Under the pieces are notes generated by a model. The model saw nothing but the letters and a program-made list of their open reading frames with translations. It made no database searches and was not told the DNA's origin. Shown here in pieces: positions 53,197 to 59,207 of a stretch of 64,000 nucleotides of DNA (positions are counted from its first letter, which is position 1; every line of letters begins with the position of its first letter). Origin of the DNA: Desulfosporosinus sp. FKB. GTDB lineage: Bacteria > Bacillota > Desulfitobacteriia > Desulfitobacteriales > Desulfitobacteriaceae. The stretch spans positions 365,420 through 429,419 of the forward strand of contig NZ_NADJ01000038.1 of NCBI RefSeq assembly GCF_002196705.1, read 5' to 3'. Both the position numbers and the translations under genes were made by a program.

Positions 53197-53231
53197 ATGA
53201 CAGATCCGATGCTATGTCCATCGGATCTGTC
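53197..53231. terminator. terminator
   Basis: TGACAGATCCGAT and ATCGGATCTGTCA pair perfectly around GCTATGTCC. Confidence 0.8.
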
Positions 53232-53236
53232 ATGTT

Positions 53237-53514: not shown

Positions 53515-55632
53515 TTACTCGAAACTAGCCGACACGCGATCTCCGGGATGGAGGGCCGTCGTAAATTCGGCCTCCTGCCCGTTTACACATAATTTTAGAG
53601 AAGCCCCTTTCGGCATCTCATCCGGGAACTTAACGTAAGGCAATAGATCTGAAAGAATCGGCATCTTTTTATAACCGTTAACTCTTAAATCCATTCCGTC
53701 TTCGAGTAACTCGTTATCTGAGACGGGTTTTCCATGAAATAAGATTTCAACAACTTGGGAAGGGTATTCAAATTCTTGACCATTAATCGTAAAAATCAGC
53801 GGCTTTGGTTGGAGACTCAATTCGCCAACCGTTTTCTGTTCCTGACGAACCTCGATAGAATCTCCATCTCGGATCGGGCAGATTTCCTCAATAAGACAAC
53901 CATTAACCAGTAACTGCCGTTCCAAAACAATTTTCAGCACTTCCCCATTAGCTTTAATGGTTAAGGTTACAGGTGCTAAAATTGGCTCTTTAAACAGAGT
54001 TTTCTTTTGCTCTAATAAATTTTGCAGATTATCATTTGAAATATAGGTTAACTTATAGCCGTCTTGAATTTTATCGTCAATGTTTAACACCTGATTATTT
54101 AAATAAACCCGGGGCAAAAAGTCTTCCCGCCTGCCATTCCAGAAAATCCATTTCTTTTCAAAGGGAGGCAGAATTTCACCGGTGGTCACCTCAGCATCTT
54201 TGCCGGGGAGGCCGGGCATGAACTCAATATGGTCTCCGCTGTTCAACGTCTGATCAAATCGGCCCGGTCGTGAGTTAACCGTCAATTGGGCCGGCCGCCC
54301 CATAGTTCCCTTGATTATCCGTACTTCTTGATTCCATTCAAAGGTTAGGGCAGCCCCCGGTTTCCCGACAAAGGAACGAGGAGATATTCCCGCAGCAAGC
54401 AGAGCCTCGGCTACCGTTGTCAATTGCACCTCAAAAATTGGTATCGGTATGTTGTTGACAATTACTGTGTAATACTGAAGTCCGGTTCCTTCAAGTGCGG
54501 ATATACCAATCCCTATAGGAGTTATACTCTCCGGCCCCTTAAGACCTTTTTCCCCTTGAACGTCCTCTAAACGTTCGCGAATTTGAATTCCAACGCGTTT
54601 TGGGGAAATTCCTAAAACTTCTGCTAACATTTTGGGGAGCATCGGCGTTAGACTTCCTCCGCCAATAAGAATAATCCCTTGAGGGACCTTTTCATTTAGT
54701 TTTGTGATTTCCTTGGCTATATTTTGGGTCAGTTTACTGACGACAGGTTCAATCACCGTTAGTACTTCTTCCTTAGAAACAGTTACCTTGTTACCGAGAA
54801 AATCTGCAAATTTTAATCGAGACTTAGTACTTAGCTCCCTCTTGATCTTTTCACCCACTTTAAAATCAAGGAGATAATGCTCACAAATGGCTTCTGTGAC
54901 CTCGTCCCCAGCCATCGGCACCATGCCATAAGCAAAAAAAGATCCTTCCTGAGTCAGGGCGATATCTGCTGTCCCCGCCCCCACATCAACAAGCGCCAGG
55001 TTCAGGCGCCGCATATTCTGAGGGATTGCTGCCTGCCCTGCTGCAATAGGTTCTAAAGTTAAGCTCATCATTTCTAAACCAACTCGGCCCAGAACCGATA
55101 CTAAACCATCGACAACGGTTCTGGGCAAAAACGTGGCGATCACTTTAACTTTGGCCTTTTTTCCCCGCTGCCCGATGAGATTGGAAATCTCTTCTTCTTC
55201 GTTCCAGCAGGCAATAGTGCTATATCCAACACAATGATATTGATCTGAGTTATGTTCACTGGTTGATATTAATTGATGCAAAGCTTGATGGACTGCTTCT
55301 AATTCCAAAGCCAAGATCGTTTCTTGTTCCCACCGCACAGGCAGCAATTCCCGACGTTCGGCGCTGGCAATTTCTGTACGCAGGGCCCTGCCGGCTGCGG
55401 CAACAGCAACTTGTTTAAGGCTTACATCCAACGTTTTCTCCAGAGTCTCTTTAACAGTGCTGACGGCTCGTGCCACTTCATTAACATCATGAACTTGCCC
55501 GTCATACATAGCACGCTGGCGATGTTCAATACAGGCACTTGCCAGAATTTCATACCCTTGATCTTGGATTTTAGTCATCACTAACCCCATAACCATTCGA
55601 GTTCCAATATCCAAGGCAAAAATAGGTTCCAT
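53515..55632 (-). CDS. FtsA/PilM-like actin-fold ATPase with repeated beta-rich tail
   Basis: 705 residues. Residues 1-390 carry the actin-fold motifs: FALDIGTRMVMGLVM, LALVDVGAGTADIAL and IILIGGGSLTPML, as in FtsA, PilM and EutJ-like proteins. The rest, about 310 residues, repeats a short unit at least five times: N or NG, 8-11 residues, then GD or GY (NSRPGRFDQTLNSGDHIEF, NGCLIEEICPIRDGDSIEV, NGQEAEFTTALHPGDRV). This looks like a chain of beta-grasp modules. Probably a membrane-associated assembly protein; role unknown. Confidence 0.75.
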   Translation of the reverse strand: MEPIFALDIGTRMVMGLVMTKIQDQGYEILASACIEHRQRAMYDGQVHDVNEVARAVSTVKETLEKTLDVSLKQVAVAAAGRALRTEIASAERRELLPVRWEQETILALELEAVHQALHQLISTSEHNSDQYHCVGYSTIACWNEEEEISNLIGQRGKKAKVKVIATFLPRTVVDGLVSVLGRVGLEMMSLTLEPIAAGQAAIPQNMRRLNLALVDVGAGTADIALTQEGSFFAYGMVPMAGDEVTEAICEHYLLDFKVGEKIKRELSTKSRLKFADFLGNKVTVSKEEVLTVIEPVVSKLTQNIAKEITKLNEKVPQGIILIGGGSLTPMLPKMLAEVLGISPKRVGIQIRERLEDVQGEKGLKGPESITPIGIGISALEGTGLQYYTVIVNNIPIPIFEVQLTTVAEALLAAGISPRSFVGKPGAALTFEWNQEVRIIKGTMGRPAQLTVNSRPGRFDQTLNSGDHIEFMPGLPGKDAEVTTGEILPPFEKKWIFWNGRREDFLPRVYLNNQVLNIDDKIQDGYKLTYISNDNLQNLLEQKKTLFKEPILAPVTLTIKANGEVLKIVLERQLLVNGCLIEEICPIRDGDSIEVRQEQKTVGELSLQPKPLIFTINGQEFEYPSQVVEILFHGKPVSDNELLEDGMDLRVNGYKKMPILSDLLPYVKFPDEMPKGASLKLCVNGQEAEFTTALHPGDRVSASFE

Positions 55633-55774: not shown

Positions 55775-57187
55775 TTACGTTAAGATATACCGTTCGCTGC
55801 CATAGGCCTCGATGGCTGATTTTTTAGCTTCATAGCCGGGGCGTCCCATTAAACCATAAGTACCATTTTTGCCTTCCTCTACCCCTGGTTGATCAAAGGC
55901 ATTGATGTTGAGCAGTTCACCCATATAGGCAGCTTCCCATTCCAGAAGAAGAAGTAATTGCCCAATATTATAGGGAGTTAAGGCAGAAAGGATAATTTTC
56001 AAATGTTGCCGACCCGCCAAGGTTAAGGCATATTCGGTAGCTTTTTGCTCAGCAAATAAAAGCTCCTCTAAGGTTTTCCCTCCTAAAAACCGAATATCTT
56101 CCGGTAAGGTTAAATCCATAGGTATTTTTTGAGTTTCTTGGAATTTTTCCAGATTTAAGAAGGTAATAACCTTATCATCCGGTCCCTCAGTATATAATTG
56201 AATCTGAGAGTGTTGATCCGTTACTCCCAGGGCCTTTACCGGTGTCTGCCCCAAAGTAACCTCCTTCCCTAACCGATCATAACGTTTGCCTAAACTCTCT
56301 GCCCATAACTGAGCATACCAATCAGCCATTGTTTTCAAGCCGTCCACATAGGGCATAAACACTGAGATATTTTTTCCTTTTTGCCAGGACAAATATGACA
56401 GGGCTGTCTTCAATTGGGCAGGATTAGCAAATGCTCCCTTTGTTTCCCTAATTCGTCGGTCCATCTCTGCAGCCCCTGCTAAAAGTTGTTCGACGTCGAT
56501 TCCGCAGATCGCCGCCGCCAAAAGACCAACTGGGGTCAGTTCAGAAAATCTTCCTCCAATACCTGAAGGAATGACAAAACGTTTAAATCCTTCCTTAAGG
56601 GCTATAGGCAAAAGGTTGCCTTTTTGTTGGTCTGTAGTAACAACGAGATGATCAGCATAACTTTCTCCGCAGGAACGACGCAAGTAATCTCGAACAATGA
56701 GGAATTGAGCCATGGTTTCTGAGGTATTTCCTGATTTGGAAATAACATTGTAGAGAGTTTTTTGCGGATCAAGAATTTGATCTAGCTCTCGAAAACGAAC
56801 CGGATCAATATTATCCAAGACATAAAATCGAGGCCGGCCAGACCGCTTTTCCGGTGTCAATTCGTTGTAGTAATAATGATTTAAGGCTTGCTGGACCGCT
56901 AAAGGGCCAAGCGCTGACCCTCCTATGCCCAAGACAACAAAGTTCTCGAATCGAGAGGCAGCTTGATCAGCATAATCACAAAGTTCAGGAACCTGGCTAA
57001 GCATTACCGGCAAAAGAAGAGAAAAATCCAAGTTTCCCGATTCCCTCCGGGCATGCAAGGAATTTTGAGCCTCGTCCAATTTTGCTTGCAATCCTTGTAA
57101 ATCTTCTTTGGAAAAACCTTTAGGATTTTGAGACGAATACATCATTCCTGTGTAATCGATGCAAAGTTTGGATGTTTCATTAGCCAT
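55775..57187 (-). CDS. pgi: glucose-6-phosphate isomerase
   Basis: 470 residues. Substrate loops GIGGSALGPLAVQQAL, ISKSGNTSETMAQF and GIGGRFSELTPVGLL; the catalytic Glu and Lys/His are in this region and in DQHSQIQLYTEGPDDKV. Converts glucose 6-phosphate and fructose 6-phosphate. 66 bases after pfkA, same operon. Confidence 0.93.
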   Translation of the reverse strand: MANETSKLCIDYTGMMYSSQNPKGFSKEDLQGLQAKLDEAQNSLHARRESGNLDFSLLLPVMLSQVPELCDYADQAASRFENFVVLGIGGSALGPLAVQQALNHYYYNELTPEKRSGRPRFYVLDNIDPVRFRELDQILDPQKTLYNVISKSGNTSETMAQFLIVRDYLRRSCGESYADHLVVTTDQQKGNLLPIALKEGFKRFVIPSGIGGRFSELTPVGLLAAAICGIDVEQLLAGAAEMDRRIRETKGAFANPAQLKTALSYLSWQKGKNISVFMPYVDGLKTMADWYAQLWAESLGKRYDRLGKEVTLGQTPVKALGVTDQHSQIQLYTEGPDDKVITFLNLEKFQETQKIPMDLTLPEDIRFLGGKTLEELLFAEQKATEYALTLAGRQHLKIILSALTPYNIGQLLLLLEWEAAYMGELLNINAFDQPGVEEGKNGTYGLMGRPGYEAKKSAIEAYGSERYILT

Positions 57188-57253: not shown

Positions 57254-58225
57254 TCAAATTGACAACTCATTAGCCAGATCATAAAGTTCGCGATTTAGAG
57301 GGCGACGAGGGCCATAAGCATCATCAAGAGGCCGGGATACTACAGCTTGATTAATGTAAGCTGTCATACGATTCGTTTCATTGGCCATGAGAATTTCAAC
57401 GGCCTTCCCTCCCATTGCTGCAGCAATCACGGCATCAAGAGCACTGGGATTTCCTCCGCGCTGCAAGTGCCCAAGAACTGTAATCCGGGTTTCAAAGCCT
57501 GAGCGGGTATGCAATTCTTCTCCGATTTTGTAGGCGCTTCCTACGCCTTCCGAAACAAGGATAATACTATGATTCTTACCCCGTTGATGACTTCTGAGTA
57601 ATTTGTTGCTGATTTCATCCAAATCATAGGGAATCTCCGGTACCAGAATCGACTCTGCGCCACAAGCCAGACCCGCCTGGAGGGCAATATTCCCGCAGTT
57701 TCGTCCCATAACCTCAACAATAAATGTCCGGTCATGAGATGACGCCGTATCACGAATTTTGCTTACAGCATCAACGACTGTATTCACTGCAGTATCAAAG
57801 CCAATGGTTAGATCTGTTCCGGCAATATCATTGTCAATGGTGCCCGGAATCCCAACTACCTTGACTCCTTGAGCTACAAGGGTTTGGGCACCTCGAAAAG
57901 ACCCATCTCCCCCTATTACAACGAGGGCATCAATCTTTCGTTCCTGCAATTGAGCTAAGGCCTTCTGTTGTCCGGCTGGAGTCTTCATTTCCTCCGAGCG
58001 GGCAGTTTTCAGGACTGTTCCTCCCCGTAGAACGATATCCGCTACGGAACCGATACTCATTTCCTGGATTTCGCCGTGAATGAGTCCCTCATACCCTCGA
58101 TGAATACCAAAAATCATTAGTCCGTGGAAAATACCTTTACGAACAACTGCTCGAACAGCAGCATTCATTCCGGGGGCATCCCCTCCGCTTGTAAGCACCC
58201 CAATTCTCTGAATCGACCCTGACAT
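57254..58225 (-). CDS. pfkA: 6-phosphofructokinase
   Basis: 323 residues from ATG at 58225, with CAAAGGAGTGATCC upstream inside the end of the DnaA-like gene; a longer start at 58243 is in that RBS. GVLTSGGDAPGMNAAVRA, VIGGDGSFRGAQTL, GTIDNDIAGTDLTIGFDTA and PFK signature RGGNPSALDA are intact. ATP-dependent, allosteric type. The gene is probably translationally coupled to the DnaA-like gene. Confidence 0.93.
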   Translation of the reverse strand: MSGSIQRIGVLTSGGDAPGMNAAVRAVVRKGIFHGLMIFGIHRGYEGLIHGEIQEMSIGSVADIVLRGGTVLKTARSEEMKTPAGQQKALAQLQERKIDALVVIGGDGSFRGAQTLVAQGVKVVGIPGTIDNDIAGTDLTIGFDTAVNTVVDAVSKIRDTASSHDRTFIVEVMGRNCGNIALQAGLACGAESILVPEIPYDLDEISNKLLRSHQRGKNHSIILVSEGVGSAYKIGEELHTRSGFETRITVLGHLQRGGNPSALDAVIAAAMGGKAVEILMANETNRMTAYINQAVVSRPLDDAYGPRRPLNRELYDLANELSI

Positions 58226-58229
58226 AGGA

Positions 58230-59207
58230 TCACTCCTTCGCAATATCTTTAAACTTATTTTTTATTTCTTGATAGCGGTTAAATAATTCCTGATCCTCAA
58301 GCAACTTTTCTTCCATTTTCTTATAGGCCGTAATAATGGTAGAATGCCGCCGCTTAAAATATGAAGCGATGGCTGGATATGAGAGCTTGCAAAGGGTTCG
58401 CATCGCATAAATTGCTAATTGCCTGGCCTCGTTGACAGAAGACTTCTGAGTTGAGCTAATAATTTCCTCAAGAGTAAAACCCATGACTTGAGCCGTTGCC
58501 CACAGGATGTTTATTGGGCTTATCTCTTGACTCTGTTTCCTGACCTCCTCTTGCCAATAGGATAGAAAGCATTGCTTACTAAGTTCATCGTTATGATATT
58601 CCGCATATTCCAAAAACCTATGAAGGACTTTTTGCGCCTCGGTGAGACCTTCTGTTCGCTGGGCAATCATTTCTGGAATTACGGGATCCATTGAAAGCAA
58701 TAAGCGATGTGAGTATTCTTCCACAAAACCTTCCACCTCATAGCCCTGAGGCTTATTGATGGGGATGACAATTCCGCTTAGTAAACGCGACGTCAAACGG
58801 TCTCCTAAAAAGTTCAGATTCAGCATATCAGTTTCCAAAACCGCTACCATCTTACCTCCTCTTTGAACGATGTTTTCATAAGTAAAAAGAATTTCTTCAA
58901 TCGTCTGCTTTTTTCCGGCTAAACATTGCAAATCGTCCAAAAGCAGCAAGGATGCAGCGCGATAGTATTGGCGAAACCGGGGGAGCTTACTTTCCTGTGC
59001 AGCAAAAGCATATTGACGGGAAAAGGATGTAGAATCGATTAAAATACTCCCCTCTTTTTTCCTGTTTTGATTAAGGAAATTTAAAAGGGAAGACTTGCCA
59101 ACACCCGGCGGCCCGTAAATAAGCGTCATGCTTGGCGCAGTTTCGAGTTCGTAATGCTTCATGAAACGCCACGCCTTTATATTAAAATCGCTTAAAAACC
59201 AGTTCAA
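58230..59207 (-). CDS. DnaA paralogue lacking domains I-II, in an operon with glycolysis genes
   Basis: 325 residues, TTG start with AGGAGAGG upstream. A DnaA-type AAA+ domain: Walker A YGPPGVGKSS at 32-40, Walker B LLLLDDLQCLAGKK at 87-100, arginine finger near DRLTSRLLSG at 136-145. Residues 228-325 are a DnaA domain IV with KSSVNEARQLAIYAMRTLC, but the recognition helix reads KRRHSTI where DnaA has GRDHTT, so D is replaced by R. The N-terminal DnaB-binding domain is missing. Role not known; could regulate rather than start replication. Confidence 0.8.
   Translation of the reverse strand: MNWFLSDFNIKAWRFMKHYELETAPSMTLIYGPPGVGKSSLLNFLNQNRKKEGSILIDSTSFSRQYAFAAQESKLPRFRQYYRAASLLLLDDLQCLAGKKQTIEEILFTYENIVQRGGKMVAVLETDMLNLNFLGDRLTSRLLSGIVIPINKPQGYEVEGFVEEYSHRLLLSMDPVIPEMIAQRTEGLTEAQKVLHRFLEYAEYHNDELSKQCFLSYWQEEVRKQSQEISPINILWATAQVMGFTLEEIISSTQKSSVNEARQLAIYAMRTLCKLSYPAIASYFKRRHSTIITAYKKMEEKLLEDQELFNRYQEIKNKFKDIAKE

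Follow-up and report, generated by a model that had tools for sequence, protein, structure and literature searches.

A shortened, fast-evolving DnaA paralogue, made up of domains III and IV, is encoded immediately upstream of pfkA in Desulfosporosinus sp. FKB. The gene lies in a window of 64,000 nucleotides (the whole stretch of DNA that was analysed; contig NZ_NADJ01000038.1), and its orthologues were found in 70 of 71 genomes from two families of one order, spread over 20 genera. The protein is predicted to bind ATP, not to hydrolyse it, and to act mainly through AAA+ contacts on DnaA, in a dose that would follow the pfkA unit; we put the chance of this reading close to even, and somewhat below it. 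A search of open-licence papers returned no description of these proteins, which apparently form an undescribed DnaA-derived family.

The DnaA-like gene and its product

The features of the operon and of the DnaA-like gene are listed in Table 1. The TTG start of the gene is preceded by a good Shine-Dalgarno sequence (AGGAGAGG). Pfam matched Bac_DnaA (PF00308) at residues 28-148 (E=1.9e-15) and Bac_DnaA_C at residues 233-297 (E=1e-15). The NCBIfam DnaA model (TIGR00362) scored 159.4 bits, far under its equivalog cut-off of 343.9, and 70-175 bits with the other orthologues. Domains I and II are absent: the orthologues match over 320 aa in open frames of about 320-370 aa, which end just before domain III. 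There is thus no room for a domain I, and the first-pass annotation was right to exclude helicase loading through it.

Table 1. Features of the pfkA operon and of the DnaA-like gene (positions in the window).
Feature	Position	Strand	Basis or remark
DnaA-derived AAA+ protein gene	58230..59207	-	intact ORF, 325 aa; domain III about 1-226, domain IV about 229-318
Walker A motif GPPGVGKS of the DnaA-like protein	59091..59114	-	ATP binding; GxxGxGK invariant in aligned orthologues
Altered DnaA signature/recognition helix KRRHSTI of the DnaA-like protein	58335..58355	-	DnaA has GGRDHTT
End of the DnaA-like gene, AAG GAG TGA, doubling as the pfkA Shine-Dalgarno	58230..58238	-	direct sequence reading
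pfkA, 6-phosphofructokinase, 323 aa from ATG	57254..58225	-	PF00365, E=2e-111
pgi, glucose-6-phosphate isomerase	55775..57187	-	named by knowledge of the family
FtsA/MreB/PilM-type protein, 705 aa; last gene of the conserved block	53515..55632	-	
Strong terminator-like hairpin 3' of the FtsA-like gene	53197..53233	-	consensus match only

An AlphaFold model of the protein (29 orthologues as input; mean pLDDT 92.9) comprised an AAA+ domain with the initiator-specific helices, the lid and a DnaA-type HTH domain. Its best structural matches were DnaA of B. subtilis, A. aeolicus and T. maritima, and domain IV (residues 229-323 of the model) was superposed on the M. tuberculosis DnaA-DBD with a Z of 17.1 and an rmsd of 1.6 over 95 residues. 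The main DnaA of the strain (453 aa, with GGRDHTT) is encoded elsewhere, as had been supposed, on another contig and adjoining the sliding-clamp gene dnaN.

Distribution, phylogeny and selection

The orthologue was present in 45 of 46 genomes (9 of 9 genera) of the window's family and in 25 of 25 genomes (11 genera) of the second; we take these families to be the Desulfitobacteriaceae and the family of Dehalobacter and Syntrophobotulus. The sole genome without it (G034) is likely to have an assembly gap, because pfkA of the same type is missing there as well. In Desulfosporosinus acididurans the protein is 89% identical and the gene order unchanged. Among the matches listed, ordinary DnaA only was found in the third family of the order (3 genomes), in another family of the class (9 genomes) and, outside the two families, in a set of 398 phylum genomes with a completeness of at least 90%, the frames of this last set being of at least 433 aa. 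Very distant relatives, with matches too weak to be among those listed, may still occur there.

A tree was built from 25 paralogues and 15 main DnaA proteins. The paralogues formed one group apart from DnaA (support 100/100), with branches much longer than those of DnaA; the earlier claim of a DnaA paralogue is borne out. Compared with D. acididurans the gene had a dN/dS of 0.19, and compared with the next species 0.17; this indicates purifying selection and therefore a working gene. Over the range of values (about 0.1-0.28) both domains were under purifying selection, and the gene evolves faster than pfkA (dN/dS 0.06). The original observation is confirmed and is stronger than first put: the wide occurrence of orthologues, the dN/dS and the model place it well outside chance.

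A mobile or phage origin was considered and rejected, as the phage matches were at most 28% identical and the gene is core in its order. The phage matches listed are brief, unannotated records, and their similarity does not exceed what any DnaA would show.

Organization of the pfkA operon

The ATG of pfkA (58225-58223) lies 4 bases past the TGA of the DnaA-like gene, and its AAGGAG falls inside the last codons of that gene (GCG AAG GAG TGA). A Shine-Dalgarno sequence within the preceding gene, followed by a 4-base gap, is the usual layout for translational coupling, and the two genes are presumed to be coupled in this way. The hairpin beyond the FtsA-like gene is the probable end of the operon. 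It has a perfect 15-bp stem with T-rich flanks on both strands and, lying between lgt and the FtsA-like gene, would likely terminate transcription in both directions. A promoter scan was at chance level (16 found, 13.2 expected).

Of the proteins of the genome, the 705-aa one matches FtsA best, and none reaches the FtsA equivalog cut-off; it may substitute for FtsA. Other families of the class have its gene too, at a distance from pfkA.

Gene order was compared in 64 genomes (45 of the window's family and 19 of the second). On the same strand and within 133 bp, pfkA lies downstream in 53 of them, many with an overlap of 4-20 bp, the distances being approximate since they were taken from the alignment start. 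One extra same-strand gene intervenes in 4 genomes, a large gene in 2 and an opposite-strand gene in 1; the remaining genomes have contig ends, are unresolved or have no pfkA nearby. At L073 and L112 no pfkA was found within 3.5-5 kb of the paralogue. The first-pass annotation had staked its reading on two points, the lack of a domain I upstream in homologues and the conservation of the operon in relatives; no such domain was found, and the operon is strongly conserved.

At L040 (7456-8703 (+)), L041, L046 and L047, in two genera, a gene of 412-415 aa stands between the paralogue and pfkA, which are still on the same strand; judged by eye, it seems to carry PRC-barrel, MgtE-N and CBS domains. 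The upstream neighbours (named by eye) differ between the families: ppiB and lysR in the first, and genes for glutamine synthetase, DedA and a TPR protein in the second. In several genera pgi is missing from the block, and pfkA and the FtsA-like gene are retained. In a sister family of the class, pfkA follows an accA-like gene and precedes the pyruvate kinase gene, and the FtsA-like gene is elsewhere; a DnaA-like gene beside the FtsA-like gene was looked for in sister families and not found. The block of dnaA-like gene, pfkA and FtsA-like gene is thus particular to the two families.

One draft genome carries a third DnaA-like gene (L117, 5349-7280 (-), G066:C42), a frame in which BspA-like leucine-rich repeats are fused to DnaA domains III-IV with GGRDHST intact. 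This is either a real fusion or an assembly artefact.

Conserved and lost residues

Residues were scored in 44 paralogues of the first family and 19 of the second, for comparison with 15 main DnaA proteins. The residue groups were fixed by known roles in E. coli DnaA and were not picked from the data. The E. coli numbering was placed on the paralogues by motif, giving presumed equivalents, and the sensor 1 and Walker B positions are our own assignments from general knowledge of AAA+ motifs. The other roles were as reported for E. coli DnaA (PMC5742627): R285 and R227 serve DnaA-DnaA contact, R334 serves hydrolysis and is dispensable for forming the initiation complex, and V211 and R245 are the ssDNA positions, in the hydrophobic and the basic motif.

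The ATP-binding positions were those of DnaA in 372 of 372 cells (100%). Conservation of the protomer-contact positions (R227, K243, R281, the Arg finger R285 and L290) was 78% in the first family and 86% in the second, and the counterpart of R227 is invariant. The background, taken from the columns invariant in DnaA, was 30% and 24%, respectively. Sensor 1, sensor 2 (R334) and the second Walker B acid were kept in 16% and 5%, and the ssDNA positions (V211, R245) in 3% and 8%, V211 being nearly always replaced by Ala. The DnaA-box contact positions were kept in 49% of cases in the first family and in 23%, which is background, in the second.

The recognition helix was altered as first described, the GGRDHTT signature of DnaA being aligned with -KRRHST: D433 is absent from all 44 first-family sequences, one G of the GG pair is deleted and T435 is changed. 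The alteration is less complete than had been implied, as R407 is kept in 44 of 44 sequences, H434 in 43 of 44 and a basic residue at 432 in 44 of 44, with the counterpart of R432 itself retained by the window's family. Most relatives have R399, for which the window's clade has Gln. With R407, R432 and H434 kept but the other three positions changed, a different or relaxed DNA specificity of the protein is likely.

Domain IV and DNA binding

In two members of the second family, L111 (6178-6792 (-), from a complete genome) and L167 (2191-2802 (-)), domain IV is missing (proteins of 204 and 203 aa), and the ATP site and the pfkA neighbour are in place despite the loss. These two genes are natural test cases for the contribution of domain IV. 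Some second-family members gave no Pfam match to the domain; in a structure model of one member of that family a helical domain IV was still folded. Judged from these sequences, DNA binding is not the conserved core of the paralogue family. A new DNA specificity, to which the first-pass annotation gave emphasis, is probably not the main point, given the background-level helix of the second family and the two genomes that dispense with the domain.

In the first family domain IV is basic (mean net charge +4.8) and under selection, and its retention there suggests that DNA binding matters in the window's family. The protein might then be an ATP-sensing transcription factor, with the changed domain IV on an operator or operators of its own, and perhaps control the pfkA-pgi operon or other metabolic genes. 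The HTH fold, R407, H434, the basic residue at 432, the positive charge of the first-family domain and the selection on it agree with such a regulator, as does the fact that DnaA itself acts as a transcription factor (PMC4207641). We nevertheless consider it unlikely. The recognition positions of the second family do not rise above background, L111 and L167 still precede pfkA without the domain, and DnaA boxes were not enriched upstream of the paralogue genes (1 in 67 kb); within the window they were at chance level, with none near the DnaA-like gene.

Proposed role

In the reading that places the protein on DnaA, we infer that the paralogue binds ATP and does not hydrolyse it, and that, by way of the conserved protomer interface of its AAA+ domain, it would insert into assemblies of the real DnaA or cap them. 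The kept and lost residues together describe a subunit able to take up ATP, to remain in the ATP state and to enter a head-to-tail assembly of the DnaA type, and presumably unable to grip single-stranded DNA in the manner of DnaA. It would take no part in helicase recruitment or origin opening, because domain I and the hydrophobic ssDNA-contact residue are missing. Most simply, such a subunit would modulate replication initiation, probably as a brake. A metabolic role would follow from its amount, which would track upper-glycolysis expression because the gene presumably forms a translationally coupled unit with pfkA (and often with pgi and the FtsA-like gene).

The census is consistent with this, the ATP and interface positions being kept and the hydrolysis and ssDNA positions lost. 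So are the single clade that coexists with normal DnaA, the selection on both domains, the disappearance of domain IV from two genomes that retain the ATP site and the pfkA linkage, and the closeness of pfkA though the upstream neighbours differ between the families. In B. subtilis, glycolysis and DnaA-dependent replication are already genetically linked (PMC1866360, PMC4207641).

Several points weigh against action on DnaA. Residues of the interface have a further part in stabilising the AAA+ fold, or could let the paralogue assemble with itself, and the kept, basic and selected domain IV of the first family suggests that DNA binding matters there. With YabA already present in 70 of 74 genomes of the order, a place for one more regulator of DnaA is not evident. 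A stable gene order is by itself no proof of a functional tie to PfkA, and L073 and L112 have no pfkA nearby; the link between glycolysis and replication suggested by the first-pass annotation is plausible, its basis being gene order only.

The protein could also have abandoned replication and act on PfkA, or on how the products of the operon are translated or assembled, for example by partnering PfkA or the FtsA-like protein in an ATP-dependent way. The linkage to pfkA is more constant than domain IV, the pfkA Shine-Dalgarno sequence is embedded in the gene, and the loss of the ssDNA and hydrolysis residues fits; assembly among paralogue subunits would explain the kept interface too. A PfkA partner as such, however, needs none of the DnaA-type interface residues, among them the Arg finger and the AID-1 Arg, which are far above background, and we hold this account to be rather improbable. 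That the gene is a vertically inherited operon fossil, of weak or minor function and beside pfkA for historical reasons, would suit its fast evolution, its long branches and the way domain IV has eroded in the second family, and is very improbable given its dN/dS, the invariant ATP site of the aligned orthologues and its retention in all but one genome.

Relation to known systems

The paralogue shares with DnaA (TIGR00362; 8btg, 1l8q) the fold of domains III and IV, the ATP site, the protomer-interface residues and an AAA+ domain III with Walker A/B and the box VII Arg finger. It differs in the lack of domains I-II, sensor 1, sensor 2, the ssDNA contact and part of the DnaA-box contacts; its score is less than half the family cut-off, and it is neither the sole initiator nor near dnaN. 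Domain I of DnaA makes the contacts with the helicase and with DnaD/SirA.

Hda/HdaA (TIGR03420; 3bos, 5x06) is also a DnaA-derived AAA+ protein without domains I-II (structure match, Z 18), and the paralogue may work like Hda, since it could contact ATP-DnaA through its Arg finger. In contrast to Hda, it scores 32.3 bits against a cut-off of 194.8 (relatives at most 48.6) and by inspection starts at domain III (MxWFxSxFN...), with no N-terminal extension for a clamp-binding motif. It also has a domain IV, which only L111 and L167 lack among the orthologues, and occurs, linked to pfkA, in an order of Gram-positive-type anaerobes. As it fails several of the defining features tested for each family, it was placed in neither.

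YabA (PF06156), a modulator of DnaA in low-GC Gram-positives, is an unrelated protein. Its occurrence in the same genomes rules out replacement by the paralogue, which is thus an addition to YabA.

Metabolic control of replication through PykA in B. subtilis shares the link to glycolysis, and glycolytic mutations act there on replication (PMC10427196, PMC1866360). In those accounts glycolytic enzymes act on DnaE/DnaC/DnaG, whereas in the present case a paralogue of DnaA is encoded together with pfkA. Nutrient control of initiation in B. subtilis needs DnaA and oriC (PMC4207641), and a DnaA paralogue does not appear in the available portions of the three accounts (PMC4207641, PMC1866360, PMC10427196). 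A bolder form of the action on DnaA would be an order-wide, ATP-bound and non-hydrolysing dummy subunit, made from one translationally coupled unit with PfkA, that poisons or caps filaments of DnaA. Glycolytic gene expression would then set initiation directly, and the protein would be a counterpart of Hda evolved independently from DnaA outside Proteobacteria. We offer this form tentatively and judge it somewhat unlikely.

The way in which bacteria match replication initiation to their nutrition has long been in question. For B. subtilis a part is played both by glycolytic genes and by DnaA at oriC, with the connector still to be identified (PMC4207641, PMC10427196). A DnaA paralogue that has remained beside pfkA across an order, with its interface kept and its catalytic and DNA-opening parts lost, is a concrete and testable candidate for such a connector. 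Its hosts include sulfate reducers and organohalide respirers, the growth control of which is of practical interest.
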